NCBI RefSeq assembly: GCF_000011005.1
Contig: NC_013665.1
Span: forward strand, 1,351,437 to 1,415,436
Direction of reading: 5' to 3'
From: Methanocella paludicola SANAE
GTDB lineage: Archaea; Halobacteriota; Methanocellia; Methanocellales; Methanocellaceae
Length of the DNA stretch: 64,000 nucleotides
Part shown: positions 5,750 to 55,058 of the stretch, piece by piece
How positions within the stretch are numbered: the first letter of the stretch is position 1
Layout: every line of letters starts with the position of its first letter
Notes under the pieces: generated by a model
What the model was told of the DNA's origin: nothing
Database searches by the model: none
The model's input: only the letters and a program-made list of their open reading frames with translations
Position numbers and translations under genes: made by a program

Positions 5750-7720
5750 TTATCGAGGGGATATATTTTTTGGTACTGGATACGGGCGGTGTCCTGAGAA
5801 ATCGGGTTTTTGTTTTTTGTTTATGAGGCGGTCGTAATACCTGGCTACTACGCAGCCCCTCGTGCAGCGGCCGCAGTGGTCGCATCGCTTTTCGTCTACC
5901 TTAATGTGGCCATCCAGCCTTATTGCCTTTTTTGGGCATGCCCTGACGCATATCCTGCACTTCGTGCAGAGCGAGGCCCGCAGCACCTGCCTGATCGTGT
6001 TCTCGAAGAGCTTTCCGGCCTCTTCTTTGTCGTTGGCCGAGGCGTATATCTGGCCTCCGGCGAATAGCTTGGCCGTGCCCTTTCCCTTTGGCATTCTTAC
6101 GAGTATGACGTCAAGGTCTTCCGAGTACGCGGGGGCGCCGATGGTCTTGAGCATCTCCAGCAGCCTCTCGGTCGAGGCCTTATTAGGCAGTCGAAGGACG
6201 CCCTCGATGCTGTACCCGCCCAGCGTGCAGGGGCTGATCCCTCGTATGATGTCCAGCGCCATGCCGCTCTTGTAAGACGGCTTCAATGGTATGTGTTTTT
6301 CCTGTGCGATATTGAGCATCTTGTTGGGATGCGACTTCCAGCGCCAGAAGCCATAGCGCACATAGTCCGGCGTGAGGCCCGACTCGTCCGCCCACTTGTG
6401 GAGCTTGTTCTGCCACTCTCCGTAGCGGTCCGGGTGTAACTCTTTCATGCGGACATATTCTGCCTGGAGCGCGGCAGGGCATAGCCAGCAGCCGATGCGC
6501 TCGAAGCCCCTATCGTACAATTCGTTATACGGCAGCTTTTCCATGTGGATGTACAGCCAGACTTCGATGGCCCGCCAGTCCTTGATCGGGAATACGCTCA
6601 TCTGGCCCGGGACGAACGGGTTTCGCTCCACGGTATCGATGCCGCCCCGCTGGAACGACTCGTATCTGCGCTTGCCGTCTATCGTGATTACGCCTTTTTT
6701 GAACTGTGATAAATGAGTAGTGACGGGCCCGAGCTTGCATACTTTGCAGCACCACCTGAAGTCTTTTGCCGGCGGGCCGAACGCGGGAAAGTTTTCATCG
6801 AACGCCTTACCCGCCTTTTCTATTTTTACGGGCACTTCCTTTGCGGTATCTTCCACGAATTTCGTGGTCTCCGGGAACTCAAGGCCCGTATCAATGTAGA
6901 ATGCCTCGAACTTCTTCACCGCCTTCTTCGTTAAGTTCAGCACGACGAGGCTGTCCTTGCCGCCGCTGAACGAGACGGTTACTGGTAGTTCTTTGTTCTT
7001 GCCCTGGCTTACGACGCCTTTGATGACGTTGATGGCATCCTTCTCCATGGCCTCGATGGTCTTGCGGTTGGCGGCCACTGCATCCTCGAGAGTGCTGAGC
7101 TTATCATTAAGGCGAATAGAGCCGCCGCCGATCTTCCGGATCTTGATCGTGTTCTGCGAGGCATCTTTAAGGTTCTCCGCGTCCGCTTTTGCCACGCCAA
7201 GCCCGTTGAAGTTCTCGTTTACCCTGATGAGCACGATATCGTCCTTTTTAATATCCGGGGAGGTATCGACGACCGTGCTTCCCTTAATGCCCTTGCCGCT
7301 CAGGTGCATGTTCCGGGGCACATCCACGGTGACTGTCTTTTTATTAGTAAGGGCCATGAGGAGCTTGGCCCCGTAGAGCCTGAGGTCCAGCTTATAGCCC
7401 TCTTCTTTTAAGTCATAATAGACTACAGCGATCGTGTATCCGTCAATGATGATCTCGTCGGCCTTATCGTCGCCGGGTATTTTGTTTAAGAGCACCAGGC
7501 GCTCGCCGATGGGATCGCAGCCGAAGTCGCGCTCGAATAAATTCCTGATGATGGTACGCTCGTAGGGCGAGCAGAACCGGACATCGCCTGGCGGGGAAAG
7601 CCTGACCTGTCTGGCCGTAGCTCCGCATGTGCCGCATGTCTCACTTATGAGCGGCACATTGCATGAGTCGCACCAAAAAATATGATCCAGGGCTCCCTCG
7701 AAGGGCTTGATTCCGGCCAT
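5750..7720 (-). CDS. PUA-PAPS reductase-ferredoxin fusion protein
   Basis: 656-residue soluble protein of the archaeal PAPS-reductase-like family. Domains in order: zinc ribbon (CDSC at 17-20, CGTC at 29-32); a middle part with a PUA-like RNA-binding domain (about 125-200); an adenine-nucleotide alpha-hydrolase/PAPS-reductase core with P-loop SGGKDS at 252-257 and the cysteine cluster WCCKVCKLGP; and a C-terminal 2x[4Fe-4S] ferredoxin (Cys585, 588, 591, 595 and 613, 616, 619, 623). True PAPS reductases do not carry PUA or dicluster ferredoxin domains, so an RNA- or sulfur-transfer role is as likely as assimilatory sulfate reduction. Methionine synthase is divergent, 100 bp away, which hints at sulfur metabolism. 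Confidence 0.88.
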   Translation of the reverse strand: MAGIKPFEGALDHIFWCDSCNVPLISETCGTCGATARQVRLSPPGDVRFCSPYERTIIRNLFERDFGCDPIGERLVLLNKIPGDDKADEIIIDGYTIAVVYYDLKEEGYKLDLRLYGAKLLMALTNKKTVTVDVPRNMHLSGKGIKGSTVVDTSPDIKKDDIVLIRVNENFNGLGVAKADAENLKDASQNTIKIRKIGGGSIRLNDKLSTLEDAVAANRKTIEAMEKDAINVIKGVVSQGKNKELPVTVSFSGGKDSLVVLNLTKKAVKKFEAFYIDTGLEFPETTKFVEDTAKEVPVKIEKAGKAFDENFPAFGPPAKDFRWCCKVCKLGPVTTHLSQFKKGVITIDGKRRYESFQRGGIDTVERNPFVPGQMSVFPIKDWRAIEVWLYIHMEKLPYNELYDRGFERIGCWLCPAALQAEYVRMKELHPDRYGEWQNKLHKWADESGLTPDYVRYGFWRWKSHPNKMLNIAQEKHIPLKPSYKSGMALDIIRGISPCTLGGYSIEGVLRLPNKASTERLLEMLKTIGAPAYSEDLDVILVRMPKGKGTAKLFAGGQIYASANDKEEAGKLFENTIRQVLRASLCTKCRICVRACPKKAIRLDGHIKVDEKRCDHCGRCTRGCVVARYYDRLINKKQKPDFSGHRPYPVPKNISPR

Positions 7721-13204: not shown

Positions 13205-14129
13205 GCCCCGTCATTTTAATGAAAACGTCCTCGAGTGTCGATTCCCTGACGTGCATGGACTTTACCGCCACGCCGCCGGACCTGAGGAAGTCCAGCACCT
13301 TTACGGCAGCAGTACTGGTGTCGCTCACGTGGACGATGAGCTTTTCCCTGCTTAACGAATAGCGAATGACGCCCGGCACCGATGTAAGGTCGGGCACATG
13401 GTCGCCGACGATGTCGAACTCAAGGCGGCTGCTGTCGACCTCCCGGCGCTTCAAGGCGTCGGGGGTGCCCAGCGCGATGAACCGGCCATGGTCCATGATG
13501 GCCACACGGCCGCAGAGGCTCTCCGCCTCCTCGATGTAGTGCGTCGTCAGCACGATGGTCGTGCCTTCTGAATTGAGCTTCTTCAACATGCCCCATAAGG
13601 CACGGCGGAGCTGCACGTCAACGCCCGTCGTCGGCTCATCCAGAAAAAGCACCTTCGGCCTCTGCATCAGAGCACGGCCGATGAGCAGGCGGCGCTTCAT
13701 GCCGCCCGATAATTTATCACAGTACTCGTTCGCCTTGTCGCTGATCTCTAAAAAGTCAAGGATATCGTCGGCACGCTTTTCTCTCTCTGCCTTCGGCATG
13801 CCATAGTAGCCCGCGTGGTACGTGAGGATCTCCTTCGTCTTGAGGTTCTCGTCGAAGTTATACTCCTGCGGGGCCACGCCGATGAGCTTTCTCGACTCGA
13901 TGGCGTCCCTGACGATGTCTCTTCCGAGGATACTGGCGCTGCCCGAAGTAGGCGTGGAAAGTCCCACGAGCATGCGGATCAGCGTGGTCTTGCCGGCGCC
14001 GTTCGGCCCCAGCAGCCCGAAAAACTCTCCGGTCCCGATATCCAGGCCCACGTTATCGACGGCGGTCAGGCCGTTGAATCGTTTTGTCAGGCCCCGGATG
14101 GAAATGGCCTGCTCTTCCGTCGTGCCCAT
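13188..14129 (-). CDS. ABC transporter ATP-binding protein (DrrA-like)
   Basis: 313-residue ATPase subunit of an ABC-2 exporter. Walker A GPNGAGKTT (about 38-46), the signature LSGGMKRR, Walker B VLFLDEPTTG and the switch His (TTHYIEEAE) are all present. The C-terminal part (about 225-310) is the DUF4162-type extension common in DrrA-like proteins. Its ATG at 14129 overlaps the stop of the upstream aldolase gene as TAATG, and its 3' end overlaps the permease by 17 bp, so all three are probably translated from one mRNA. Confidence 0.93.
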   Translation of the reverse strand: MGTTEEQAISIRGLTKRFNGLTAVDNVGLDIGTGEFFGLLGPNGAGKTTLIRMLVGLSTPTSGSASILGRDIVRDAIESRKLIGVAPQEYNFDENLKTKEILTYHAGYYGMPKAEREKRADDILDFLEISDKANEYCDKLSGGMKRRLLIGRALMQRPKVLFLDEPTTGVDVQLRRALWGMLKKLNSEGTTIVLTTHYIEEAESLCGRVAIMDHGRFIALGTPDALKRREVDSSRLEFDIVGDHVPDLTSVPGVIRYSLSREKLIVHVSDTSTAAVKVLDFLRSGGVAVKSMHVRESTLEDVFIKMTGRELRE

Positions 14130-21764: not shown

Positions 21765-21852
21765 GCGGGGGTTGCCCAGACAGGTCAAAGGCGTAGGATT
21801 GAGGGTCCTATTCCGTAGGGATTCGCGAGTTCAAATCTCGTCCCCCGCACCA
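21765..21852 (+). tRNA. tRNA-Leu (GAG anticodon), CCA encoded
   Basis: Class II tRNA with long variable arm. Acceptor GCGGGGG pairs with CCCCCGC; the anticodon stem TAGGA/TCCTA encloses loop TTGAGGG, giving anticodon GAG (Leu, CUC/CUU); the T arm is GCGAG-TTCAAAT-CTCGT. The 3' ACCA is genome-encoded (21849-21852). Pieces of this gene recur downstream at 22413-22428 (3' end) and 26915-26964 (D arm to T loop), marking it as an integration site. Confidence 0.93.
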
Positions 21853-21913
21853 CCTAAAACGGTTCAAAGCTCTCCGTTTTTTCATAATTTTCGTAAAATC
21901 AATAATGACATGG

Positions 21914-21980
21914 AATCAGCAGGTCGCGAGTACAAATCTCGCCGGGGGCTTATAGGCGTGAGGTATAAATCCCCAAGCTA
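21914..21980 (+). repeat. tRNA-Thr 3' fragment with element flank (attachment-site relic)
   Basis: 67 nt starting AATCAGCAGGTCGCGAG, matching the tRNA-Thr(TGT) 3' half from just after the anticodon, then about 30 nt of non-tRNA flank (GGTATAAATCCCCAAGCTA). The whole 67 nt matches the reverse complement of 48601-48667 at 60 positions. It is not a functional tRNA (no 5' half). It reads as an attachment scar carried here by a mobile element. Confidence 0.75.
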
Positions 21981-22114
21981 ATAATTTTTTATATTCAACG
22001 TTTCTAAGCCGGATCCCTACACCACACCAAATAAGTTCAAAGCTATCCATTTATCGCAAAAAAGATTATATTGTAATGAAATATCCATATTAAAGATAAT
22101 TGGAGGTTATATAA

Positions 22115-22303
22115 TTGGCTGTAACGGATAAGACTGCGAATAAAAAGAACATTGCCATAATTTTAGCAGTATTAGGGATAATCTTAATGAGTATCGGATT
22201 GGTAATAGTTCGCGGATCTGGCTGGGGTATTGTTTCAATTATATCAGGTTTAGTATTATTGGTTTTTGGCGGCTATTTGATATATGCTAAACCAAAAGCT
22301 TAA
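22115..22303 (+). CDS. small two-helix membrane protein in the tRNA-Leu insertion
   Basis: 62 residues with two hydrophobic helices (about 13-31 and 37-58), separated by RGSGWG. The start is a TTG at 22115, supported by a strong ribosome site GGAGGT at 22102-22107, seven bases upstream; no ATG competes. The gene and its surroundings are distinctly AT-rich relative to the chromosome. It lies between the intact tRNA-Leu 3' end and a 16-bp copy of that end at 22413-22428, so it belongs to inserted DNA. No function is recognised. Confidence 0.65.
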   Translation: MAVTDKTANKKNIAIILAVLGIILMSIGLVIVRGSGWGIVSIISGLVLLVFGGYLIYAKPKA

Positions 22304-22412
22304 TTAAAAAATTGTCTTTTTGAAAAATAATTGTTTAATGCTGGGTCCCAGCATGAGGCTAAAGCAGTCCGAAGCTATCAGAACTTCGGGCCGTCTTACC
22401 TACCAATTAAAG

Positions 22413-22428
22413 CTCGTCCCCCGCACCA
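22413..22428 (+). repeat. 16-bp copy of tRNA-Leu 3' end
   Basis: CTCGTCCCCCGCACCA, identical to 21837-21852, the last 16 bases of tRNA-Leu including CCA. A direct repeat of a tRNA 3' end is the usual scar of site-specific integration; the 560 bp between would be the remnant of the insert. Confidence 0.75.
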
Positions 22429-22596
22429 GCTATTTGTACTTCATTATCTTCGCGATCAGACGCCCGGCCTGATGATTGACTAATACCTTAAAAGCCTCTA
22501 CCGAAAGTAATTTTTTACTCAATAGGACTATTCGTATATACTCAGGTAAAAGTATATTTTGGTAAAAGATAATACTTTATTTTGTAAAAAGAAAGA

Positions 22597-22606
22597 TATT
22601 TATATT
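22597..22606 (+). promoter_or_regulatory. TATA box of the DUF4143 ATPase gene
   Basis: TATTTATATT preceded by purines (AAAAAGAAAGA, BRE-like), centred about 26 bp before the ATG at 22628. That spacing places the transcription start at or next to the ATG, so the mRNA is probably leaderless. It decides the start codon of the ATPase. Confidence 0.6.
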
Positions 22607-22627
22607 CACAATAGAAACTTGATACTC

Positions 22628-23830
22628 ATGCTTCTAAAGGAGACGCTTCGGAAACTTGCGGAAATACAGGCTGGAGAGGTGAAAGTGCTCGATCAGGGCA
22701 CTGGCAGGGACCTCCTGGACACCATCGACATGCAGTCTCCCCTGGCCGTCATCATCTCCGGCGTGAGGCGGTGCGGTAAAAGCACCTTGCTAAAGCAGAT
22801 AATGAAAAAGAACAGGAGCTATAATTACTTTAATTTTGAGGACGAGCGTGCGCTTAATTTCGAAGTGTCCGACTTCGAGCGGCTGGACGGCGTATTCTCG
22901 GAAATAAATCGGGGCGCAACTCATTATTTCTTCGACGAGATCCAGAACGTTCCCGGGTGGGAGGTGTTCGTCAGGAGGAAGCTTGACGAAGGTAAAAAAT
23001 TTTTCATAACGGGCTCGAATTCGTCGCTAATGAGCAAAGAACTGGGTACGAAGCTTACCGGCCGCCACTTGACCTACGATCTTTTCCCCATGTCCTATTC
23101 AGAGGCATTGCGGCTTACCGGAGAGTCGGCGTCCCTCGCTTCTTTCGACAAGTACTTCATGACCGGAGGATTCCCTGGCTATATCAGGCACGACAACGAC
23201 ATGATGCTTCAGCAGGTGTTCGACGACATCGTCGTCAAAGACATCGTCGTCCGGTATGGCTTGAAGGACCCGCTCCTGGTAAAAAATCTGGCCATATATT
23301 TAATAACGAACTCGGGAAAAGAGTTCTCCTATAATAGCCTGAAAAAATCGTTCGACGTCGGCGCCGCGTCGACCATATCGAACTTTGTCTCCTATTTCGA
23401 GGACAGCTACCTGCTCTTCACCATCCCGAAGTTCTCGTATTCCTATAAGCAGCAGCTCATGAACCCGAAAAAGGCTTATGCCATCGATCACGGGCTTGCA
23501 AGGGTGAACAGCGTCTCCTTCTCCGAAGATAAGGGAAGAATACTGGAAAACATCGTCTTCTTACAACTGAGGCGACAGTATCCTGATATTTACTATTTTA
23601 GAGAAAAGAGCGAATGCGATTTCATAGTTAAGAATGCGGCGGGTCAGTTACTGGCCATGCAGGTCTGCTATAAGCTGGATGAAGATAACCTGCGCAGGGA
23701 GATGAAAGGCTTAAGAGAAGCGATGGGGGTCGCCGGTATCAAGAAAGGCTTGATCATTACGCTGGGCCAGGAAGATAAGTTCGACGATATAGATGTCGTT
23801 CCCGCGTGGAAATGGCTGTCAGGACAGTAG
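22628..23830 (+). CDS. AAA ATPase with DUF4143 nuclease-like C-terminus
   Basis: 400 residues when started at the ATG at 22628, chosen because a TATA box lies 26 bp upstream (leaderless). N-terminal P-loop ATPase: Walker A SGVRRCGKST, Walker B HYFFDEIQNV, sensor ITGSNSSLMS, then a winged-helix middle; the C-terminal DUF4143 domain keeps the PD-(D/E)XK-like pattern (ENIVFLQLRR...YYFREKSECDFIV). This archaeal/bacterial ATPase family is very common in methanogens and near mobile DNA; its role is unknown, though nucleic-acid cleavage or toxin-like functions have been proposed. It lies inside the tRNA-Leu hotspot. Confidence 0.9.
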   Translation: MLLKETLRKLAEIQAGEVKVLDQGTGRDLLDTIDMQSPLAVIISGVRRCGKSTLLKQIMKKNRSYNYFNFEDERALNFEVSDFERLDGVFSEINRGATHYFFDEIQNVPGWEVFVRRKLDEGKKFFITGSNSSLMSKELGTKLTGRHLTYDLFPMSYSEALRLTGESASLASFDKYFMTGGFPGYIRHDNDMMLQQVFDDIVVKDIVVRYGLKDPLLVKNLAIYLITNSGKEFSYNSLKKSFDVGAASTISNFVSYFEDSYLLFTIPKFSYSYKQQLMNPKKAYAIDHGLARVNSVSFSEDKGRILENIVFLQLRRQYPDIYYFREKSECDFIVKNAAGQLLAMQVCYKLDEDNLRREMKGLREAMGVAGIKKGLIITLGQEDKFDDIDVVPAWKWLSGQ

Positions 23831-23884
23831 TATCATTAATTTTTATTTATCAACTTAACTAACAACACTAGCGGTTAATATTCT

Positions 23885-24082
23885 ATGGAAAAAGCAAAAG
23901 ACGTTGATTCTTACATCGCCAGTTCTGACAAAGAGGCTCGTCCGATACTCGAAGAGCTCTTATCTTTACTACGAAGGTCCGAATCCTTAAGGATTTGCGT
24001 GTTTAAATATCGTCCCTATACCATGCTAAAGTGGTATATTATGCATGTTCCATTTTGCCTTTTATCCATGCAACAATATTAA
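23885..24082 (+). pseudogene. truncated DUF1801-like protein
   Basis: The first 35 residues (KDVDSYIASSDKEARPILEELLSLLR) resemble the N-terminus of the DUF1801/YdhG family, normally 110-150 residues. After RRSES the similarity ends and the frame closes after 65 codons with hydrophobic, Cys/Met-rich residues of no known kind. It is read as a decayed gene. Low-GC surroundings and its place in the insertion hotspot fit decay. The family call is from memory of the motif and is moderately sure. Confidence 0.5.
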
Positions 24083-24135
24083 AACTAACAACAAGGCCTT
24101 TTCTAAAAAAACGCTTTTTCAACGTCAACTTGTAA

Positions 24136-24146
24136 CTTTTATATGG
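24136..24146 (+). promoter_or_regulatory. TATA box of the TrmB-family gene
   Basis: CTTTTATATGG, centred about 28 bp before the GTG at 24169. The spacing predicts a leaderless mRNA beginning at the GTG and supports that start codon. Confidence 0.5.
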
Positions 24147-24168
24147 TTAAAGGTAGTATTGGCAAGTT

Positions 24169-24933
24169 GTGCTGCTTGATGAAAAAACTCTCGTGACGCT
24201 GCAGAGGCTTGGCCTGACCTATTACGGCGCGCGGATCTATGAAACGCTGGTATTGCTGGGCCCGAGCGACGCGACCAGGCTTTCCGCCGAGGCGGATGTT
24301 CCAAGGACCAAGGTGTATGACATCCTGCGGCGGCTCGAAACCGAGGGCTGGATCACGAGCGAGCGTACGCGGCCCATCACGTACACCGCCCGCTATCCAC
24401 GGGAAGTGCTCGAAGAGCGGAAAGCCGAATTTAATGCGGCAGTCGATGAGACTGCGAATGATCTGTCCATGCTGTACGATAATCAGATGGACAAGGAGAA
24501 CCCGCGGGTGTGGCTGTTAAGGGGTTCGGGCAACGTGACAGTCAAGCTGCTCGACATGATCAGCCGGTCGAAAAAGAGCATCATGCTTATGGGCTCCCTT
24601 TACTTTGCCGATGAGATCGGGCCGCTTAAGACCCAGCTTGAATACGCAAAGAAACGAGGAGTGACCATACGTCTCATAACCCAGAAGAGTATTCAGCTGA
24701 AGGACGGCGAAATTGACATCCTGGGCCAGCTGTCTCCGGCCGTATCCGAGGTAAAAGTATATGGGCCGCCGTACTCGAAGTCCGCGATCGTCGACGACCG
24801 GGAATTACTGATGTTATTCCCCCGCCTCGATAATAACGTACCCGACGAGGATAGCATCGTCGCCATCTGGATCCCCAACACCGCCGTCGCTTCTAACTGG
24901 GCGAGCATTTTCAATGCGGTCTGGAATGCGTGA
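24169..24933 (+). CDS. TrmB-family transcriptional regulator
   Basis: 254-residue regulator with an N-terminal winged helix (about 5-80; LGLTYYGARIYETLVLLGPSDATRL, then the recognition helix VPRTKVYDILRRLE) and a C-terminal effector domain (about 110-254) like the PLD-like sugar-binding part of TrmB. TrmB proteins sense sugars or other small molecules. The GTG start fits a leaderless promoter. The MFS transporter follows directly: its track start even overlaps, and its preferred start is 91 bp downstream. Regulation of that pump is the simplest inference. Confidence 0.88.
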   Translation: MLLDEKTLVTLQRLGLTYYGARIYETLVLLGPSDATRLSAEADVPRTKVYDILRRLETEGWITSERTRPITYTARYPREVLEERKAEFNAAVDETANDLSMLYDNQMDKENPRVWLLRGSGNVTVKLLDMISRSKKSIMLMGSLYFADEIGPLKTQLEYAKKRGVTIRLITQKSIQLKDGEIDILGQLSPAVSEVKVYGPPYSKSAIVDDRELLMLFPRLDNNVPDEDSIVAIWIPNTAVASNWASIFNAVWNA

Positions 24934-25024
24934 CCAGACAACTGTCATCTTTACCCCCTTAAAAGTTACAAAAGATATATTAATCGCCTTCATCCTGATT
25001 CCATTATCAGAGGTTTGCTTCCGG

Positions 25025-26443
25025 ATGACATCGATTATCGATAAACGTCTTGTACTGATCATCACCTGTTTGACGGCCTTCACTACGCCCTTCTTGTCGA
25101 CATCCGTCAACATCGCGCTGCCGACCATCAACGCCGAGTTCGCGGTCCCGGACCAGGCGCTGCTGAACTGGCTGGTCACCAGCTATTTGCTCGTGTCGGC
25201 CATCTTTGTAGTCCCCTTCGGCCGTATTGCCGACCGGTATGGCCTGAAAAAGGTCTTTGTCACCGGCCTGTTCGTCATCGTCGTTTCGTCGGCCCTCTGC
25301 GCCATATCCGGCTCCATTTTCATGCTCATCGCCTTCCGGGCGATCGAGGGCATCGGCGCTGCCATGATCTTCGGCACGTCCATGGCCATCCTGACCTCCG
25401 CGTACCCGCAAAAGGAGCGGGGCAAGGTGCTGGGCATCTACATGGCGGTCACGTACGCTGGACTGTCGCTGGGCCCATCGCTGGGCGGCTTCATCATTCA
25501 CTTCGGAAGCTGGCGGCTCATCTACGCCGGTATCGCGGTGTATGCCCTGTTAGTGGCCTTGCTTGCCGTCAGGAAGCTCGCCGATGAAAGATCCGCGGCG
25601 GAGAAAGGGCAGTTCGACCTGCCCGGGACCGTTCTTTACGGGGCGGTGCTCGTCTCGCTTATACTGGGCCTGTCCAGCTTACAGGAAATGCTCGGCATAG
25701 CCCTATTCGGGCTCAGTCTCGTCCTCATGGCCGTGTTCTTCGGGTGGGAGTTGCGACAGGCCAATCCGGTGCTCAAGGTCAGCGTATTCCGGAAGAACAC
25801 GGTATTCATGTTCTCCAACCTGGCCGCTTTGATTAATTACAGTGCGATCGGCGCCGTCCCATTCATGCTGAGCCTGTACCTGCAGAAGATCTACGGGTTA
25901 GATGCGCTAACGACCGGGCTCATCATGATCGTCCAGACCGTACTGATGGTGGCGTTCTCGCCCACGGCCGGCAAGCTGTCCGACAGGCTTGAGCCGCGTA
26001 TCGTGGCTTCGGCGGGCATGGCCATCTGCGCCATCGGCCTGGTGCTCTTCGCCATGATCTCACCGGAGACGCCCCTGTGGCTGGTTGTCACAAGTCTGAT
26101 ATTCATGGGCATCGGCGTCGCGTTCTTCTCGTCGCCCAATACCAACGCGATCATGAGCTCTGTGGCGAAGTCAGACTTCGCCGTGGCCTCGAGCATGGTG
26201 AGCACGATGCGTATGATCGGCGGGATACTGGGCCTGGGCATCGCCAATCTGATATTCACGTACTTCATGGGACACACTGAGATCCCTGCGACGGGCCCTT
26301 ACGACCTCCTCATGAAGAGCATCCAGGTGGCGTTTGCGGTCATGGCGGGGCTCTGCATCATCGGCGTCGGCCTGTCTTTGGCTAGAGGCAACCTGCGTAA
26401 AGCCGAGGTTACGCCGATCGCACACGCTATCAAAAAGTCATAG
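25025..26443 (+). CDS. MFS drug-resistance transporter (DHA2, 14-helix)
   Basis: 472-residue proton antiporter of the DHA2 drug family. Motifs: NIALPTINAEF in helix 1, GRIADRYGLKKVF (motif A) between helices 2 and 3, and SLGPSLGGFI in helix 5 (motif C-like). The ATG at 25025 is preferred over an open frame 37 codons longer, because MTSIIDKRLVLIITCLTAF aligns with the start of the paralogue at 40675 (MAEVTDKRLILLITC). Both proteins also share VFRKNTVFMFSNLAALINYS. It probably exports toxic compounds under TrmB control. Confidence 0.92.
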   Translation: MTSIIDKRLVLIITCLTAFTTPFLSTSVNIALPTINAEFAVPDQALLNWLVTSYLLVSAIFVVPFGRIADRYGLKKVFVTGLFVIVVSSALCAISGSIFMLIAFRAIEGIGAAMIFGTSMAILTSAYPQKERGKVLGIYMAVTYAGLSLGPSLGGFIIHFGSWRLIYAGIAVYALLVALLAVRKLADERSAAEKGQFDLPGTVLYGAVLVSLILGLSSLQEMLGIALFGLSLVLMAVFFGWELRQANPVLKVSVFRKNTVFMFSNLAALINYSAIGAVPFMLSLYLQKIYGLDALTTGLIMIVQTVLMVAFSPTAGKLSDRLEPRIVASAGMAICAIGLVLFAMISPETPLWLVVTSLIFMGIGVAFFSSPNTNAIMSSVAKSDFAVASSMVSTMRMIGGILGLGIANLIFTYFMGHTEIPATGPYDLLMKSIQVAFAVMAGLCIIGVGLSLARGNLRKAEVTPIAHAIKKS

Positions 26444-26459
26444 CCCAATAAGTAAAAGA

Positions 26460-26879
26460 GACTCTTCCGCGGTTTTGGGATGAATGTTTTTTTATCCTTT
26501 TCTAGTTATGCCGTCGTTGAGTGGTCCAACCACAGGGGCACGGAGCGCACAGGAGTTACACAGAGTTTTCTTATAATTTGAGACTCAGAGAGCTCAGAGG
26601 CCGGTTTATTAGTTTGCCTGGGGCACAGAGTTTATTGAGGCTCGGTTGACCAATAAACAATAATGCGGTTTATCCTCGGCAGTGCCTCTTTCAACTCCGT
26701 GCCCCGGGAATGTTATAAACCCGTACTCCGTGGCCTCTGGGTCTCCATTTATAAGAAAACTCCGTGAAACTCAGCGCTCTCCGTGCCCCTGTGGTTGGAA
26801 TACTCAACGACGGCATAACATAAAAACGAGCGAAGGCATCAGCCAAAGCAATATATCATCCCAAAAACGCACAAGAACC
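26460..26879. repeat. 420-bp palindromic repeat element, copy II
   Basis: Reverse complement of copy I (3896-4315), equal length. Its own arms 26505-26545 and 26779-26819 are a 41-bp inverted repeat with two mismatches, and the first arm is identical to that of copy I. It begins 17 bp after the MFS gene and ends 36 bp before a tRNA-Leu fragment. A frame of 170 codons (26682-27194) runs over the repeat and is not a gene. Confidence 0.85.
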
Positions 26880-26914
26880 GTAAAAGAATTAAATAAAAAT
26901 TTGCATGCACACAG

Positions 26915-26964
26915 CAAAGGCGTAGGATTGAGGGTTCTATTCCGTAGGGATTCGCGACTTCAAA
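26915..26964 (+). repeat. tRNA-Leu internal fragment (attachment-site relic)
   Basis: 50 nt from CAAAGGCGTAGG to GACTTCAAA, matching 21786-21835 of tRNA-Leu at 48 positions. It covers the end of the D arm, the anticodon arm, the variable arm and half of the T arm, but neither acceptor strand, so it is no tRNA. It is a direct repeat with the intact gene 5.1 kb upstream. Confidence 0.75.
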
Positions 26965-45645: not shown

Positions 45646-46027
45646 GTTTTTTAAAAGGTAAGAGAGCCCCCTGCGAGTTTCGACCGGATGGATATCAGCC
45701 GATCATAACCCGAGCATATCTTGTGCAAATACTCCCACTCCAGCAAGCTTAAATATGGGAATAAACGTATACGTATTTTGGGTTTGGATTGGAGTAACTG
45801 ATGAGAAAATCTCATCTCTATCCGTTGATTGTTCAGCGATGGCTATAGAAATTTTGGATATGAGAGCCTCAATTTACATTCCCGCCTGGCCGATGCTCGG
45901 CCTACTCCTTTTACAAACGTGTCCATGTAGCCCGGCAAGGACAAACTGAAAATAATGTGAAGCGGCCCATGCGCCTGTTTGGCACTTGAGCATGGTTCCG
46001 CATTATCAAATGGGGATGGGAATAAAC
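45646..46027. other. long leader/promoter region of ftsZ
   Basis: 382 bp without a convincing gene. It holds a TATA-like TTAAATAT at 45749-45756 and a perfect palindrome ACGTATACGT at 45765-45774, about 260 bp before ftsZ. A 64-codon open frame (45755-45949) has no protein character. A nearer ftsZ promoter was not found. Confidence 0.4.
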
Positions 46028-47179
46028 ATGAGTATGGATTCAGTTGTGCAAGAAGCACTGAAATACACAGAAATGGAACGCGAGTACAGGAACGATAAGG
46101 GCGAGAACACTGCCGGTAGCGACTTCGAGGATTTTGGCCTCCCTCGTATCAAGATCGTAGGATGCGGCGGAGCCGGAAACAACACCATCAACCGATTATA
46201 CAACATCGGCGTCGGGAGTGTCGAGACAATAGCCGTGAACACCGATAAGCAAGGACTTGACATGGTCAAGGCCGATAAGAAGATCCTCGTGGGCAAGTCC
46301 CTGACCAGAGGATTGGGCGCGGGCGGTTTCCCGGAGATCGGCAAGAGAGCGGCGGAACTCGCGAGAGGCACTTTGCAGGAAGTCCTTAAAGACGCAGACT
46401 TAGTATTCATCACCGCAGGCATGGGTGGCGGAACGGGCACCGGGACCGCACCGGTCGTTGCCCAGGTCGCAAAGGAGCAGGGCGCCATCGTCGTTGGCAT
46501 GGTCTCCACGCCATTCAAGGTAGAACGAGCGAGGATCGTCAAGGCAGAAGAGGGTATCGCCGAACTAAGATCCGCGGCGGACACGGTCATCGTGCTTGAC
46601 AACAACAGGTTGCTCGAATATGTGCCGGACCTGCCTCTGGAGCAGTCGTTCTCTGTCATGGACCAGCTGATCTCCGAGACAGTAAAGGGCATATCCGAAA
46701 CGATTACGAAGCCATCGTTGATCAACCTGGACTTCGCTGATGTGAAGGCCGTCATGAACGGAGGCGGCGTCGCTGTGATGCTCATCGGCGAGGCAAAGAG
46801 CCAGGATAAGTCCGACAACGTCGTAAGGAACGCGCTCAGTCACCCGCTGCTCGACGTGGATTGCCGTGGCGCTACCGGCGCTCTGGTGCACATCACCGGC
46901 GGGCCTGACCTGACCCTGAGCGATGCCACGAACATCGCAGAGTCGTTAACGTACGAGATGGACTCTAACGCTAACGTTATATGGGGCGCAAGGGTCCAGA
47001 AGGAATACGAGGGCAAGGTACGAGTGATGGCCATATTGACCGGCGTGCATTCGCCGCAGATCATGGGCAAAGGCCAGAAGACTAGTGCCGCAACCAATGA
47101 TGACAGTGCCCCGATGGGCAGGCTGAACATGCGCGGCGGCTCGAAAGTGTCCAATTCCATCATCGATGCTATCAAGTGA
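46028..47179 (+). CDS. ftsZ: cell division GTPase FtsZ
   Basis: 383-residue tubulin-like GTPase that forms the division ring at mid-cell. The start ATG at 46028 gives [13 protein letters not shown]; a frame 14 codons longer is open but unneeded. Seen: nucleotide loop [11 protein letters not shown] (about 42-52), G-box [10 protein letters not shown] (131-140), [13 protein letters not shown]-type loop and the T7 loop [11 protein letters not shown] whose Asp completes the neighbour's GTPase site. The C-terminus ends in a short variable tail. Methanogens usually have two ftsZ genes; which one this is cannot be told here. It stands alone with a terminator after it. Confidence 0.96.
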
Positions 47180-47205
47180 AGCGGCCTTCGCTTCACCATT
47201 TTTAT
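47177..47205 (+). terminator. ftsZ terminator
   Basis: TGAAGCG-GCCTT-CGCTTCA, a 7-bp perfect stem overlapping the stop codon, followed by CCATTTTTAT. Good stem plus U-tract. Confidence 0.7.
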
Positions 47206-47248
47206 ATGAATAAACTCAAAAACCAAAATGGACGCAAACCTTTTCTTT

Positions 47249-47812
47249 TTTATTTATTTTTGCTGTGTTGAATTACTATCATCTCGCCCATGCTGTCAAA
47301 TCCCATTAAGAGGTTTAAGTCCGCGAAGACTGTTCGAGCCCGAAGACCGCTAAGCTTACGCGAAGACCGCGAAGACTATCTTAAATTAATTATGACTTTT
47401 TAGACTTAACCATCTAAATGATCTTTTAAGGCAGCGCCTCCAATGTTCAATATTTTTTCTTTATTCTCCATTCATTTACAGTTATGCCTTGGTTGAGTGT
47501 CCAATACACAGGGTCACGGGGCCACGGAGTACGCACGAAGATTCTTTTATATGCGAGACACGGAAGGGGACAGAGACGGGTTTATACTTAACTGAGAGAC
47601 AGAGTTACACAGGGCACGGCTTACCATAAACCGGCTCAATTACAACAATCCCATGAGTCAGTTAGCAGGTTTATCGCCAACCGGGCCCCTATAAGTTCTA
47701 CCTCTCAGTTCGCTCGGAACAGTCTTCGCGGGCTTGCACCTATTCGCGGGCTTAAAACCGGGACTGGTCAGATAAATGGGGCTAGTTCAACACAGCATTT
47801 ATTTTCAGTTAT
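47249..47812. repeat. decayed palindromic element with a third copy of the 420-bp element arm
   Basis: Outer arms pair: TGCTGTGTTGAA (47262-47273) with TTCAACACAGC near 47787-47797, and CCGCGAAGACTGTTC (from 47331) with GAACAGTCTTCGCGG near 47717-47731. The middle (from 47481, GTTATGCCTTGGTTGAGTG...) is a diverged relative of the 41-bp arm of the 420-bp elements. No gene is present between ftsZ and 48104. It looks like an old hairpin element. Confidence 0.55.
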
Positions 47813-47945
47813 CGTAATAACAAGCGCAACTCGCACATTTGGCGTCTGAGGAGTGATACTCAGAAACACTAAAATGGCTTTAATGAAAATTAGTTTTTTT
47901 TATCTAACGATTATAATAAAACATTCATTTTGTTTTAAAAAAAGT

Positions 47946-47994
47946 AAAAGAGCCCCCCGGCAAGATTCGAACTCGCGACCTGCTGATTACAAGT
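47946..47994 (-). repeat. tRNA-Thr 3' fragment A (attachment scar)
   Basis: AAAAGAGCCCCCCGGCAAG... to ...ACAAGT matches the 3' half of tRNA-Thr (52340-52387) including some downstream flank; identity stops inside the anticodon loop. With fragment B and the intact gene it forms three direct repeats in a row. Confidence 0.75.
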
Positions 47995-48103
47995 TAAAAT
48001 TAAAATAAAAAAGTCGGTCCGAAATATTTGTGGATTCGGACCAATCTTTAAAGTCCGAAGGTAAATTTTTGTGTAGAAAAACCGGACGGAATGGTGGGAG
48101 TCA

Positions 48104-48448
48104 TTAGGGTAGATGTGGATGCATCTGGCCGAATGCCATGAATATGATGTTCCATCCTACCCCAATCACGATTAACAAGGCCCAGAGCACGATGAACACG
48201 GCCAGTATTGCGAATGCGCCCTTGATTAACAGAGCCAATATTGTGCCTGCGTTCTTGAGTAACCGGTTAATCAGGTCATAACCAGATTCAAGGATGTCTA
48301 AGCTTGGCATTGATATTCTCCCCTCCAGGCGGGGGTCCAGCACAGCAATAGCTACAAAAATAATAACCGGAAAGAAAACGATTCCCAGTAATAATAAATT
48401 ACCAAAACAACAATAAGTAGCAAGTGCATTAGGAGCAGGTGTGACCAT
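48104..48448 (-). CDS. small membrane protein in inserted DNA
   Basis: 114 residues with two hydrophobic segments (about 12-38 and 72-103) around an amphipathic middle (LESGYDLINRLLKNAG). No family is recognised. It lies between tRNA-Thr fragments A and B in AT-rich DNA, so it is probably cargo of an older element at the same site. The start ATG at 48448 is the only good one. Confidence 0.6.
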   Translation of the reverse strand: MVTPAPNALATYCCFGNLLLLGIVFFPVIIFVAIAVLDPRLEGRISMPSLDILESGYDLINRLLKNAGTILALLIKGAFAILAVFIVLWALLIVIGVGWNIIFMAFGQMHPHLP

Positions 48449-48853
48449 TTACATCACAATTATTTAATTAGAGCAATTTACTTGTTATTAAATGCTTTGA
48501 ATCATAAAACTTGAAAGATATAAAATGAAAAAAGATGAGCTTTGTACCTATATAGTCGAGTCTGGGTGACGAGAATTAAAATATATAGATTATAAAAAAG
48601 TAGCTTGGAGATTTATACCCCAAGCCCATAAGTCCCCGGCGAGATTCGAACTCGCGACCTGCTGATTACAAGTAAGCGATTCGTGGCCTTTTTCTTAAAA
48701 TCAAATAACTGTGGACTTATTTTCTCATCCCTGTCAAGGATTATACGATTTCCTAGTCAGAAGGTGAGAAGTTTCATGAAAGTGAAATCAACCAATGGGA
48801 AGGTCGTGCCGTAGGATACAATAAGTATAAATCAAAATAAGCCATGTAAGCAT
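48449..48853. other. AT-rich gap holding tRNA-Thr fragment B
   Basis: Apart from the attachment scar at 48601-48673 nothing is recognised here. Just after it, 48881-49060 is rich in AAACC/CCTAAACC-type short repeats that lead up to the integrase ribosome site. Confidence 0.5.
48601..48673 (-). repeat. tRNA-Thr 3' fragment B with element flank (attachment scar)
   Basis: Bases 48634-48673 match tRNA-Thr 52348-52387 at 39 of 40 positions and stop in the anticodon loop. The adjoining 48601-48633 flank (TAGCTTGGAGATTTATACC...) recurs next to the tRNA-Thr fragment at 21914-21980. It is the scar nearest the integrase and the best candidate for one end of the element. Confidence 0.8.
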
Positions 48854-49081
48854 GTGCTTGAAAAAGCATATACTGACTGCGAAAGCCGTAAATCGAAATA
48901 CTCTGAAAAGGGGACTTTAAACCACACTACTAAACCAAAACCAGTAACGGCCAAACCACTATATCCCGCTTTGAGGGAACCACCTACTAAGGGCCGTGAA
49001 CCTAACCTTAAACCTAAACCACCTACAAAACCCCAAAACACCTACTTTTTCGTTGGCCGTGGTCAGGAGGTTAGGTCCAAA

Positions 49082-49981
49082 ATGTACATATCTGAAGTTC
49101 ACCTGGAGAGTTACCTCCTTGACACTCAAGGATTGAGTAATAAAAACGTTGAAACGATCGTACGGAACATTCGTGCCATACAGCGTGTATGGGGCGTATT
49201 GGAACCCTCTAACGAGAACGCCCTACTACTAAAAGCGGCCATGAGACAGAAAGGCCGTTCGCCTAACGCCATAAGACAATACCTTTGGGCCATGAAATAT
49301 TGGGCCAAGTCCTATGGTAAGGACATCGACTTTAAGGCCGTCCCTTTGCCGAAGCCGGAAAAGACAGTTCCAAAGATACTGGACTTTCAGGTGGTACGCG
49401 ATATCATCGAGGACGAGGGCCTGTCGATACGGGACCGTGTCATATTCATGGTGTTCGCCTTTACAGCTTGTCGCGTGGGCGAGCTAGCCTCGATTAACAT
49501 CGGGGATATAGATCATAAGGCGAGAACTCTCCTAATCCATGATACAAAGACGAGAAAGGAAAAGGTCGCCCCGATACCGCCCAGGTATTACAGCATCCTT
49601 ACCGTATATCTAGATGCCAGGGCTCGATACCTTGCACATATCGGCCGTAACACTGATGCGCTTATCGTCAGTGAACGCACCTGGACGGATGGAGATGGTA
49701 AGCCCCATAACGAGTTGACCAGTGACGGCATTAGACAGGCCATATACCGCATTGGCGAGCGTTACGGCATAGACGGGCCGTCCCAACCTGGGGAGAGGCG
49801 TAAGCGTATGTTACACCCTCATACGATGAGGCATACCGCTACTACTAAGCTGATGGATCAGCTCGGCAATCCTGAGGAAGTCATGCGGATAACGGGCCAT
49901 TCGAGTTCGGATATGCTCGATTGGTATTCGCATCCCCACATGGAACGCATAAAGGCCAAAATGGAAAGCTTCAGTTATTAG
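49082..49981 (+). CDS. tyrosine recombinase (integrase) of the tRNA-Thr element
   Basis: 299 residues from the ATG at 49082, chosen for its strong ribosome site GGAGGT at 49066-49071; the open frame runs 76 codons further upstream to a GTG but that part is repetitive Pro/Lys sequence. N-terminal SAM-like core-binding domain (about 5-85), catalytic domain with all residues: Arg131 (ACRVGEL), Lys156 (HDTKTRK), His247 and Arg250 (HPHTMRH), His273 (GHSSSD), Tyr282 (LDWYSH). It resembles archaeal XerA/SNJ2-type integrases and should recombine the tRNA-Thr site, cutting in the anticodon loop where repeat identity ends. Confidence 0.93.
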   Translation: MYISEVHLESYLLDTQGLSNKNVETIVRNIRAIQRVWGVLEPSNENALLLKAAMRQKGRSPNAIRQYLWAMKYWAKSYGKDIDFKAVPLPKPEKTVPKILDFQVVRDIIEDEGLSIRDRVIFMVFAFTACRVGELASINIGDIDHKARTLLIHDTKTRKEKVAPIPPRYYSILTVYLDARARYLAHIGRNTDALIVSERTWTDGDGKPHNELTSDGIRQAIYRIGERYGIDGPSQPGERRKRMLHPHTMRHTATTKLMDQLGNPEEVMRITGHSSSDMLDWYSHPHMERIKAKMESFSY

Positions 49982-50079
49982 CGAGGCCCCACGATGACCG
50001 GAAATGCTCGTCTCCAATCCCCGGGCCTTTGCTATAAAATTTTTTTCAGCTTGAACCCGACCGCGCCGCCTCTTCACCC

Positions 50080-50250
50080 AAATTTTGGAGGCGGCGCAAA
50101 AGCAAGGCGCGCTAGGGGGCAGCCCGTAGGGGGAACCTTGCGCGCCGACAGGATGCCCAAGCTGGTGGGGACTACGTGCGCGCCAGGCCCACGGGGGCTA
50201 CGCATCGCAAGCGCGAAGGCGCTGGCGGGCCGGAGGCCCGCCTTCCCTTG
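50080..50250. other. GC-rich structured block upstream of Rep
   Basis: About 170 bp far more GC-rich than the surrounding element, with GGCGCGC...GCGCGCC pairing and a perfect hairpin GGCGGGCC-GGA-GGCCCGCC (50224-50242). No gene is seen. It may be the double-strand origin nicked by Rep, or a structured RNA; it lies 47 bp before the Rep ATG. Confidence 0.5.
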
Positions 50251-50296
50251 ACCGTATATGAATAAGTTAGAAAATAAGAAGGAAGGAAAGCAATAA

Positions 50297-50962
50297 ATGC
50301 CGACTAACTGCATCAAGCCCATAGGATACGGTCAAAGCACTACCACAGGAGAACGATTCCACATCCCATGTAAGAAGTGGGATTGCCCCGTTTGCTCTAG
50401 GGTAAGAAAAAACAAATTGTTGGACGATGTCAACCGGTTCTTTCGTGGGGAACATGTCCGGTTCATGACGTTGACAGAACGATCTACGGCCAAAAACAAG
50501 GATAAAATAATGAAGCACTACCGGAGGCTAATGGATAATCTAAAAAAGGAATATCCGGGCCTAAAGGCGTTCTGGGTAAAGGAATTCACCAAACGGGGCG
50601 TGAGGCACCTTCACGTAGCGTTAAATATGTACATCCCCCAAGCCAGGATAAAGAAATTGTGGACGAGAGCAACTGACGGGGAAAGCTACATCGTGCATAT
50701 TGAGGATACTTGCGAGGTACGCAATGCAGCTGGATACATGATGAAGTACATGACCAAACAGCTAGAAGGTGGTGACAACTTCAAAACCCACGAAAGGCGA
50801 TACGGATTCAACGGCGAAAAAAGGCCTAAACCTCCAGAATGGGAAGGTAAAGCGGAAGGCGAAATAGAAGTAGAAATAGATCCGCACTTCAATCCCCAAC
50901 TCAAAATACTGGTTCAACTACTACAATACGAACCAAATCGCATATGGCCCCTCCTTCATTGA
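50297..50962 (+). CDS. HUH-type rolling-circle replication initiator (Rep)
   Basis: 221-residue Rep protein. An N-terminal zinc-binding part (Cys25, Cys30, Cys33: PCKKWDCPVC), motif I FMTLT at 57-61, the metal-binding HUH motif HLH at 104-106 (RHLHVALN), and motif III GYMMKYMTK at 146-154 with Tyr147 and Tyr151 as candidate nicking residues. The YxxKYxxK pattern is typical of plasmid and phage Reps. It has no helicase domain. The ATG at 50297 has the purine-rich GAAGGAAAGC upstream. It makes the integrated unit a plasmid rather than a simple integron. Confidence 0.85.
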   Translation: MPTNCIKPIGYGQSTTTGERFHIPCKKWDCPVCSRVRKNKLLDDVNRFFRGEHVRFMTLTERSTAKNKDKIMKHYRRLMDNLKKEYPGLKAFWVKEFTKRGVRHLHVALNMYIPQARIKKLWTRATDGESYIVHIEDTCEVRNAAGYMMKYMTKQLEGGDNFKTHERRYGFNGEKRPKPPEWEGKAEGEIEVEIDPHFNPQLKILVQLLQYEPNRIWPLLH

Positions 50963-51107
50963 ATACATAAACCTTGCAACATGCAGCGATATTGCAAAAT
51001 CCAAAATAAGAATGATAAAATATGAAATGGGTGATGACATGCCCATTATCTAATTTTCTACAAAGCAGTTATATCAATTGTAGATTAACTAGTAGAATGG
51101 CGAGTAT

Positions 51108-51377
51108 ATGCACGGCCATAGTATTTTTATTAATAATGATGCACCTGACGGCTCAATTTGTGAGATATGCAGTAAGCCTGCACCCTGGAAAATGTATTGT
51201 AAGGATTGTGGGCATGTACTTCGATATTTCTGCGATGAACATGCATATCTGAGCCAGGGCGATGAAAAATTAGAAAGACAAGTCAAGAAATCATATAAGA
51301 ACAACAAGCCTTTGAAGATAGGAAGAGAACTTCAAACGGCTATGGACGAATGGCAATCTTATGTGAAAATGAGTTAA
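51108..51377 (+). CDS. zinc-finger microprotein
   Basis: 89 residues. CEICSKPAPWKMYCKDC and YFCDEH give two pairs of Cys plus a Cys/His end, likely one or two zinc sites; the rest is charged and helical. No family is recognised. It lies between Rep and the HXXEE gene on the same strand and may be a small DNA-binding regulator of the element. The ATG at 51108 is the natural start. Confidence 0.7.
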   Translation: MHGHSIFINNDAPDGSICEICSKPAPWKMYCKDCGHVLRYFCDEHAYLSQGDEKLERQVKKSYKNNKPLKIGRELQTAMDEWQSYVKMS

Positions 51378-51435
51378 GTAGTTCAGTAGCAAACTACATA
51401 TATGATGTAATCTCGATTGTTCTTGAGGGATTCTT

Positions 51436-52113
51436 ATGAAGATTATGGACTTTATAAGAGGGAACTGGTACAACATAGGATTGGTTGTTGCCTTTGTTGC
51501 ATTGCTCTATTTAGTTTTGGAATATCCGAATATGGGTGTATTGCAAATTTTACTGTTGCTTAACTTTGTGGCCATTTTAATACATCAATTCGAGGAGTAT
51601 GGTTTCCCGGGTGGCGAGCCGGCGGTCATGAACATGGTATTACAGCCTAGTTCTACTCCTAACAAATACCCCTTGAATCAAAATTCGGCCATGATCACTA
51701 ATGTGGTTGTTACTTATTTGATGTACTTAATTCCAGTATTCTTCCCTAATATAATATGGCTTGGATTGGCTCCCATATTATTTGGCATGATGCAATTTAT
51801 TGTTCATGGCGTAATGACCAACTTAAAGCTCAAATCACTTTATAATCCGGGGTTGGGGGCCGTTGTTTTGCTACACATACCCATAGGATTATACTATATC
51901 TACTACATCCAAACCATGGGCCTAGCGAGTATCTGGGATTGGGTAATCGCAATCGTATACATGGTCCTCGTGGCGTTCATCGTTGTAAACAAGATGACCT
52001 ATTCGTGGTTGGCCGACAAGAATAGCCCCAATATTTTCTCTGCAGCTGAAATGAAAAGGTGGAACGTCCAAGAGAAATTAAATAAGCTTCATGGGGGAAG
52101 TCCCAAAAATTAA
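51436..52113 (+). CDS. HXXEE-domain membrane protein
   Basis: 225-residue membrane protein with six hydrophobic segments. HQFEEYGFPGG at 50-60 is the motif that names the HXXEE family; further conserved His are in QFIVHGVMTN and LLHIPIG, so a metal or acid-base site in the membrane is likely. The activity of the family is unknown. It is the last gene of the integrated element, next to tRNA-Thr, and is AT-rich like its neighbours. Met5 (51448) is an alternative start. Confidence 0.85.
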   Translation: MKIMDFIRGNWYNIGLVVAFVALLYLVLEYPNMGVLQILLLLNFVAILIHQFEEYGFPGGEPAVMNMVLQPSSTPNKYPLNQNSAMITNVVVTYLMYLIPVFFPNIIWLGLAPILFGMMQFIVHGVMTNLKLKSLYNPGLGAVVLLHIPIGLYYIYYIQTMGLASIWDWVIAIVYMVLVAFIVVNKMTYSWLADKNSPNIFSAAEMKRWNVQEKLNKLHGGSPKN

Positions 52114-52344
52114 CAATTTTCAACTTTTTGTTCTGTTTGACTTCGAGGTCAGTAACCTATTGGTATAAGTGAGGAGGGACGAAATTTTAGCAAACGTTTA
52201 TATCGTAATTAGTTATTGTTTTCATTAGAGATCGTATCATCAGCATATGAGGTCAAATGTCTATAAATTTGGCTTCATTTGTCAGCATTAGAAAATAAGC
52301 CCGTTAGGAAAATAAAGACTATATTTGGTTTTAAAAAGGAAAAG

Positions 52345-52418
52345 AGCCCCCGGCGAGATTTGAACTCGCGACCTGCTGATTACAAGTCAGCCGCTCTACC
52401 AGGCTGAGCCACAGAGGC
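52345..52418 (-). tRNA. tRNA-Thr (TGT anticodon)
   Basis: 74 nt on the minus strand. Acceptor GCCTCTG pairs with CGGGGGC (two G-U pairs); D arm GCTC/GAGC; anticodon stem GCTGA/TCAGC with loop CTTGTAA, anticodon TGT (Thr, ACN); T arm GCGAG-TTCAAAT-CTCGC. CCA is not encoded. Its 3' half is copied at 47946-47994, 48634-48673 and 21914-21950, making it the attachment site of at least one element family. Confidence 0.94.
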
Positions 52419-54110: not shown

Positions 54111-55058
54111 ATGTTCGACGTTCCGAAGATCACTGGTATTATTAGTGCCCGTAATGCGAAGACCATCGGGTTTCAGTTCCCCGAGGGCCTGAAGCGCCAG
54201 GCACCGGCTCTCGCTAAAGAGGTCGAGGCGAAGACGGGCGCCCTGGTCATTATTTCGGGCGACCCGTGCTACGGGGCATGTGATATCGACGACGCCTTGC
54301 TGGATATGGTCGATGTGCTCTTTCACTTCGGGCATTCCCGCATTAGCGATGACGACCGTATCGTCTTCATGGAGTATTATCATGATGTCGACGTCGATCG
54401 GGCTGTTGCGAGCGCATTGCCGCTGCTGGGCCAAAAAGTGGGCGTTGTCACTACCGTGCAGCACATCCATAAGCTCGACGACATCGCTAAGATCCTGACT
54501 GATGCCGGCAGGGAGCCCGTCATTTCTAAGGGCGATTCAAGGATCACTTACCCGGGCCAGGTGCTGGGGTGCAACTTCAGCGCAGTGCCCGCCGGCGTGG
54601 ACTCTTTTTTGTTCGTCGGCTCGGGCAATTTCCACCCGATGGGCATGAGGCTCGCCCATAAGGTGCCCGTGGTCGCGGCGGACCCCTTCACGGGCGAGGC
54701 CCGCCTGGTGGACGTAGAAAAAATAATGAAACAGCGATACGCCGTCATGGCGAAGGCCATGGACGCGAAAAAGTGGGGGATCATCGTGGGCATGAAATCG
54801 GGGCAGCAGCGCCTGGCGCTGGCGAAGCGCCTCAAGGATATCGCCGGCGATGCAGTGCTCATCTCCATTAAAGAGATATCTCCCGATCGTCTGCTGAACT
54901 TCAAAGTCGACGCGTATGTGTCGACGGCCTGCCCCCGGATCGCCATCGACGATGCCGGGCGATTCCCCGCGCCGGTGCTCACACCGGTCGAATTCGAGAT
55001 GGTCAAAGGCCTGAGAAGCTGGGAAGACCTGGCATTGGATGAGATAGCAGGCGATTGA
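54111..55058 (+). CDS. dph2: 2-(3-amino-3-carboxypropyl)histidine synthase (Dph2)
   Basis: First enzyme of diphthamide synthesis: an unusual [4Fe-4S] enzyme that transfers the aminocarboxypropyl group of SAM to a His of elongation factor 2. 315 residues from the ATG at 54111, which gives MFDVPKI; a frame eight codons longer lies over the AT-rich promoter. The three cluster cysteines are in GDPCYGACD (domain 1), LGCNFSA (domain 2) and STACPRIAID (domain 3). Archaeal Dph2 works as a homodimer. It is alone on its transcript or shares mscL's. Confidence 0.93.
   Translation: MFDVPKITGIISARNAKTIGFQFPEGLKRQAPALAKEVEAKTGALVIISGDPCYGACDIDDALLDMVDVLFHFGHSRISDDDRIVFMEYYHDVDVDRAVASALPLLGQKVGVVTTVQHIHKLDDIAKILTDAGREPVISKGDSRITYPGQVLGCNFSAVPAGVDSFLFVGSGNFHPMGMRLAHKVPVVAADPFTGEARLVDVEKIMKQRYAVMAKAMDAKKWGIIVGMKSGQQRLALAKRLKDIAGDAVLISIKEISPDRLLNFKVDAYVSTACPRIAIDDAGRFPAPVLTPVEFEMVKGLRSWEDLALDEIAGD

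Follow-up and report, generated by a model that had tools for sequence, protein, structure and literature searches.

The thaumarchaeal cryptic integrated element NitAQ6f-E2 carries an integrase together with a rolling-circle replication protein (Rep), and NitUzo-E2, also thaumarchaeal, is an integrase element of four genes and 2.6 kb (PMC6563490). The commonest arrangement among archaeal integrated elements places one repeat in a transfer RNA (tRNA) gene and the other beside the integrase gene (PMC4158269), and archaeal integrases are known to cross over in the anticodon loop and to integrate in tandem (PMC8371274). Here, we describe an element that appears to combine these features in Methanocella paludicola SANAE (G000), whose genome is a single contig of 2,957,635 bp; the window analysed is the 64,000-nucleotide stretch at 1,351,437-1,415,436, and positions given without a locus refer to it. 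We put the probability at roughly 85% that 48634-52347 represents a small plasmid that inserted itself at tRNA-Thr(UGU), beside the remnant of an earlier insertion. Like NitAQ6f-E2 it has an integrase and a rolling-circle Rep, although the Rep of the former is of the SNJ1-like group, and like NitUzo-E2 it is a tiny four-gene integrase unit, although the latter has no recognised Rep; both known elements are from another archaeal phylum. Because of these precedents, the locus is a new example of an archaeal integrated plasmid rather than an unprecedented one, and the first-pass annotation of this DNA, which held such units to be little described in methanogens, was only partly right. A very small integrate-and-replicate unit is nevertheless now placed in Methanocella.

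tRNA genes were called with ARAGORN and Rfam, copies of the attachment (att) site with a repeat finder, and protein families with Pfam and PHROG. The comparison genomes were G001, G002 (3,179,916 bp), which we take to be Methanocella arvoryzae MRE50, and G003, which has a contig in common with Methanocella sp. PtaU1.Bin125. The intact tRNA-Thr gene (anticodon UGU; 52344-52418, minus strand) was found by both ARAGORN and Rfam, and its 3' half recurs as one repeat family of three direct copies (52345-52391, 48631-48677, and 47952-47998), as the first-pass annotation had proposed. The tRNA copy and the next one are identical at 44 of 47 bases, whereas 20 shuffles of 46,001-52,300 gave no match better than 25/47, and the second and third copies are 85% identical over 47 nt. 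By repeat comparison, the att core within the tRNA gene occupies 52348-52387 (minus strand); the displaced 3' halves are scar B (48634-48673, minus strand), which forms the distal end of the element, and the presumably older scar A (47955-47994, minus strand). Scar B keeps 41 and scar A 39 of the 44 nt from tRNA nucleotide 32 to the 3' end, and the cores of the tRNA and scar B have 26 identical nt in common. Core to core the element measures 3,714 bp and not the 3.8 kb first estimated, and of the 47946-47994 originally assigned to scar A, positions 47946-47954 belong to a T-rich trailer (47927-47954), leaving the remainder as the scar proper. The earlier observation that identity in the scars starts at the anticodon loop was borne out, since it begins at nucleotide 32, the final base ahead of the 7-nt loop (anticodon at 35). 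Upstream of scars A and B, a 5' tRNA half was sought and found at neither. Duplication and decay of a tRNA gene, instead of integration, might also account for such copies, and tandem tRNA-Thr genes do exist in M. arvoryzae (G002), but the exact start at the anticodon loop, the missing 5' halves, the integrase gene bracketed by the copies and the relatives that lack the genes at the same site make this origin very improbable.

If the element is an integrated plasmid, its own att site (attP), carrying a copy of the tRNA 3' half, would have been joined to the tRNA gene at the anticodon loop by the element's tyrosine recombinase. The tRNA would have been left whole, with a 3' half that probably derives from the element, and the former 3' half would have become scar B. 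The stretch from scar B to scar A (47995-48633) would represent the remains of a prior insertion at the same site; there may thus have been two successive insertions at tRNA-Thr, with scar A the oldest 3' end, consistent with its T-rich trailer, which is like those of intact tRNA-Thr genes.

The integrase gene (48854-49981, plus strand) encodes a XerA-like tyrosine recombinase of 375 aa when read from a GTG (the ATG further on, at 49082, is an alternative start; PF00589, E=9e-26). The gene is whole and begins 180 bp from scar B, and all catalytic residues are present (R207, K232, H323-R326, H349, and Y358; R-K-HxxR-H-Y), confirming the full catalytic set reported before. We considered and rejected an SSV-type suicidal integrase, as the gene is unsplit, attP does not lie inside it and scar B precedes it by the distance given. 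A second integrase gene of the same genome, 29% identical, lies directly behind tRNA-Ala(GGC) (L026, G000:C1 1,772,221-1,773,290), where no distal scar was found.

Downstream of the integrase, an HUH rolling-circle Rep is encoded at 50297-50962 (plus strand; 221 aa as now read). Its assignment, already made in the first-pass annotation, is confirmed by PF23343 (E=2e-16; 60.3 bits against a curated cut-off of 27.8) and PHROG 3419. The protein has HLH at residues 104-106 and YMMKY at 147-151, and the HLH and YMxKY motifs are conserved in three Methanocella Reps. An AlphaFold model of low confidence (pLDDT 48) has the strand/helix order expected for an HUH domain; among PDB structures it comes closest to SIRV1 ORF119 (E=0.003), an HUH Rep. 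Upstream of rep, a GC hairpin (GGCGGGCC-gga-GGCCCGCC) followed by the 16-mer CTTGACCGTATATGAA (50224-50262, plus strand) is a candidate replication origin, at which the HUH Rep would nick so that the circular form replicates by rolling circle. The rep gene of G002 is preceded by a hairpin of differing sequence and the identical 16-mer, while the G003 element lacks the 16-mer. Five matches to the 16-mer in IMG/VR come close to what chance would give, as roughly estimated from the size of the collection, and were not used. With this conserved hairpin and 16-mer as putative origin, the element might serve as the basis of a shuttle vector.

The two remaining genes are probably cargo. A membrane protein of the HXXEE family (51436-52113, plus strand; 225 aa; PF13787, E=2e-18), also recognised as such in the first-pass annotation, has homologues at 48% in another Halobacteriota genome and at 41% on Paenibacillus plasmids. 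The 89-aa zinc-ribbon-like protein encoded at 51108-51377 (plus strand) owes its assignment to a Cys pattern visible in the sequence (CxxC..CxxC..C..H); the pattern supports the zinc microprotein first suggested, but the Pfam search gave sub-threshold matches only.

Among 100 relatives, a close Rep was found only in G002 and G003, and a profile search of 394 genomes of the phylum added only weak matches. Against genome contigs, the Rep profile matched only Methanocella sp. PtaU1.Bin125, and plasmid and phage records contained Reps at 28-36% and otherwise only generic integrases. The G002 element (L024 6114-13681, 7.6 kb) is bounded by tRNA-Gln (13667-13739) and a 15-nt copy of its 3' end (6114-6128). 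It resembles the window element in its Rep (80% identical; DNA 75% over 784 bp), its hairpin and 16-mer, its use of a tRNA target and the possession of its own integrase. It differs in that target, tRNA-Gln, in the integrase, which has 416 aa with a C-terminal zinc ribbon and adjoins the tRNA, and in carrying an HNH-membrane protein as cargo and an insertion sequence (IS). The PtaU1.Bin125 element of G003 (MVRA01000002.1, loci L025/L058) likewise combines a Rep of the same family (35-37%) with an integrase and a tRNA target, but this target is again tRNA-Gln, with a G002-type integrase beside it and a scar ~7.1 kb away, and its cargo comprises AbrB-like, methyltransferase, and ATPase genes. 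Since the Reps are homologous while the window integrase aligns poorly with those of both elements (24%-26%), Rep has been combined with different integrases. As judged from these alignments, the elements form one family of small integrative rolling-circle plasmids with an exchanged integrase module, in which Rep and integrase would be exchangeable; the comparison thus reveals that one Rep lineage has had unrelated integrases as partners, at more than one tRNA gene. The same genes at a non-tRNA site, a pattern that the first-pass annotation had set against its own reading, were not encountered, but in the closest relative both the target tRNA and the integrase are different. Within the tRNA-Leu island of the window, a stretch at 22327-22398 is related to the G002 Rep element, with 88% identity over 65 bp to L024 6202-6265 and 85% over 53 bp at L024 7829-7881, and is possibly a common cis site.

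Small archaeal temperate viruses often pair an integrase with a Rep (PMC13107129), and both PF23343 and PHROG 3419 include viral Reps. The element could therefore have begun as a small temperate virus with a Rep, pleolipovirus-like for instance, and have lost its structural genes. SNJ2 and other betapleolipoviruses are similarly small temperate archaeal replicons with an integrase and a hairpin origin near rep, but their Rep-Arvir is not an HUH enzyme, virion genes are present and their att sites are very short (PMC13107129). We found no structural or virion gene among the searched open reading frames of the unit (Pfam, PHROG) and no relatives among IMG/VR viral contigs with the integrase, the Rep or the Rep profile, and the sister elements of G002 and G003 have no recognisable virion gene among their listed open reading frames, as judged by eye rather than by search. 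A viral ancestry is thus quite unlikely.

For an integrated plasmid, unoccupied sites in relatives are informative. A Dph2-like gene (54114-55058 in the window; 73%-75% identity) is the upstream, divergently oriented neighbour of tRNA-Thr(UGU) in the window, G001, and G002; because this neighbour is common to all three, the tRNA-Thr loci are orthologous, and those of G001 and G002 are without the four element genes. The att copies, the gene set, the arrangement of the repeats, the relatives' loci, and the tRNA-Gln elements with integrase and Rep together uphold the proposal, first made in the first-pass annotation, of an integrated plasmid with an older scar in tandem. Some observations weigh against it. 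The unoccupied sites belong to related genomes rather than a conspecific strain, and the left flank, on the FtsZ side, is not syntenic, FtsZ being located elsewhere in the relatives. The closest integrase in the sampled genomes, at 28%-29%, is in the same genome, so that the att specificity of the element's enzyme is only inferred. Finally, the reading frame of rep departs after codon ~199 from that of its 302-aa G002 homologue, a feature absent from the first-pass annotation. The frameshift is due to an extra base in a CCCC run (50894-50897) downstream of the HUH domain, and in the DNA alignment the homology with G002 runs past the present stop, in another frame, to ~51054.

Because of this frameshift near the end of rep, the present-day autonomy of the element is doubtful and the copy may now be stranded in the chromosome; of the self-replicating, integrating element first postulated, integration is supported but self-replication is conjectural, the Rep being truncated relative to its homologue. 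The same frameshift, together with an adjoining segment between scars A and B that has no integrase, raises the possibility that the locus is plasmid by origin but now an inactive relic, capable of neither excision nor replication, in an island of successively decayed insertions. Since int is intact with every catalytic residue, the att cores still share their 26 identical nt, the HUH domain lies upstream of the frameshift and a sequencing error in the C-run is possible, we rate this at somewhat less than an even chance. The att copies, the gene families, the relatives' tRNA-Thr sites devoid of the element, the sister elements, and the frameshift were all observed; the direction and order of events, the position of the origin, rolling-circle replication, and the loss of autonomy are things that we infer. 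A literature search returned no paper on this locus.

The element is flanked by att-adjoining arms. The right arm (52226-52343, minus strand; ~118 bp) contains two imperfect repeats (CCAAATTTAT.../TGCTGAC) and recurs beside tRNA-Thr(CGT) of the same genome, beside the first scar of that tRNA, and beside tRNA-Thr of G001 and G002 (z 9-14 against shuffles). It was considered as an RNA gene, but has no match in Rfam. The left arm (48674-48800, plus strand), which adjoins int, holds GGACTTATTTTCTCAT, inverted relative to the right arm (52287-52302), and 52 bp of it resemble the left end of the second tRNA-Thr(CGT) segment (~71%), a weak match (z 3.4). An 18-nt repeat at 48857/52421 was rejected as an att arm, its distance to the core being unequal at the two ends. 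The flank of scar B (48588-48633, minus strand) comprises a short hairpin and a T-run, and scar B and this flank together match part of the tRNA-Leu island (21908-21996; 84% identity over 89 bp). In that island, a tRNA-Thr 3' half accompanied by the scar B flank (21906-21996) lies 55 bp downstream of the tRNA-Leu gene, at a site devoid of any tRNA-Thr gene. The sole gene between scars B and A (48104-48448, minus strand) encodes a 114-aa membrane protein without a homologue among the loci compared.

Tandem scars also occur at other tRNA genes. In a survey of 134 tRNAs on sampled stretches of the four genomes (coverage was incomplete), the last 50 bases of each were sought downstream, yielding 23 same-strand matches, some of which are tRNA duplicates, compared to 2 in the opposite-strand control. 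Two scars accompany tRNA-Thr(CGT) of M. paludicola, and three accompany its tRNA-Leu(GAG). We noted nine segments, 0.56-1.8 kb long, that each run from a tRNA or scar to the next scar and contain mainly one gene and no integrase. Their main gene follows the direction of the tRNA in 8/9 segments, and all genes of the 3.7-kb element are opposite; the counts are small and the segments were picked after the scan, so this orientation bias is only suggestive. One reading is that the Methanocella tRNA 3' end acts as a cassette recombination site, with integrase-less single-gene segments of 0.6-1.8 kb added serially at tRNA-Thr, -Leu, -Cys, and -Met and recognised in trans via the att-flanking arms by integrases like that of the 3.7-kb element. 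We consider such movement in trans unlikely; as integrase loss after integration has been described (PMC8371274), the simpler reading is that the small segments are decayed larger insertions. An integron-like cassette array was rejected, since an integron integrase model scored far below its cut-off and the bracketing repeats are tRNA 3' halves (attC folding was not searched for). Single-gene segments at tRNA ends nonetheless raise a testable question about the capture of small genes in methanogen genomes.

Several of these loci have features of their own. In the tRNA-Leu(GAG) island (21765-26964), the tRNA is followed by displaced pieces of itself at 22409-22428, 23973-24016, and 26915-26964. 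The intervening genes, for a 62-aa membrane protein, a DUF4143 ATPase, and a TrmB/MFS pair, all follow the direction of the tRNA. At the tRNA-Thr(CGT) locus (L053 7513-9581, G000:C1 ~927.5-929.6 kb), the 118-bp arm is present on either side of the tRNA, in inverted orientation; the two scars are in tandem, and the other strand has a tRNA-Thr(UGU)-like 3' half. A single-gene DUF7000 unit bordered by tRNA-Thr 3' ends is found at different tRNA-Thr genes (L056 7378-8009 and L053 14025-14656). The unit at the G001 tRNA-Thr recurs in M. paludicola, and thus across two genera, with 80.6% identity over 634 bp, and the M. paludicola unit lies ~6 kb downstream of tRNA-Thr(CGT), beside a decayed tRNA-Thr 3' end.

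On the left side of the window island, the adjacent FtsZ gene (45986-47179) has a close second copy elsewhere in the genome (86% identity, at 1,761,436), and the relatives have one such copy. Between this gene and scar A, 47299-47804 contains imperfect 37-bp inverted repeats 381 bp apart, and a stretch similar to 47712-47804 (78% over 93 bp) lies close to a different integrase gene at ~2.148 Mb.

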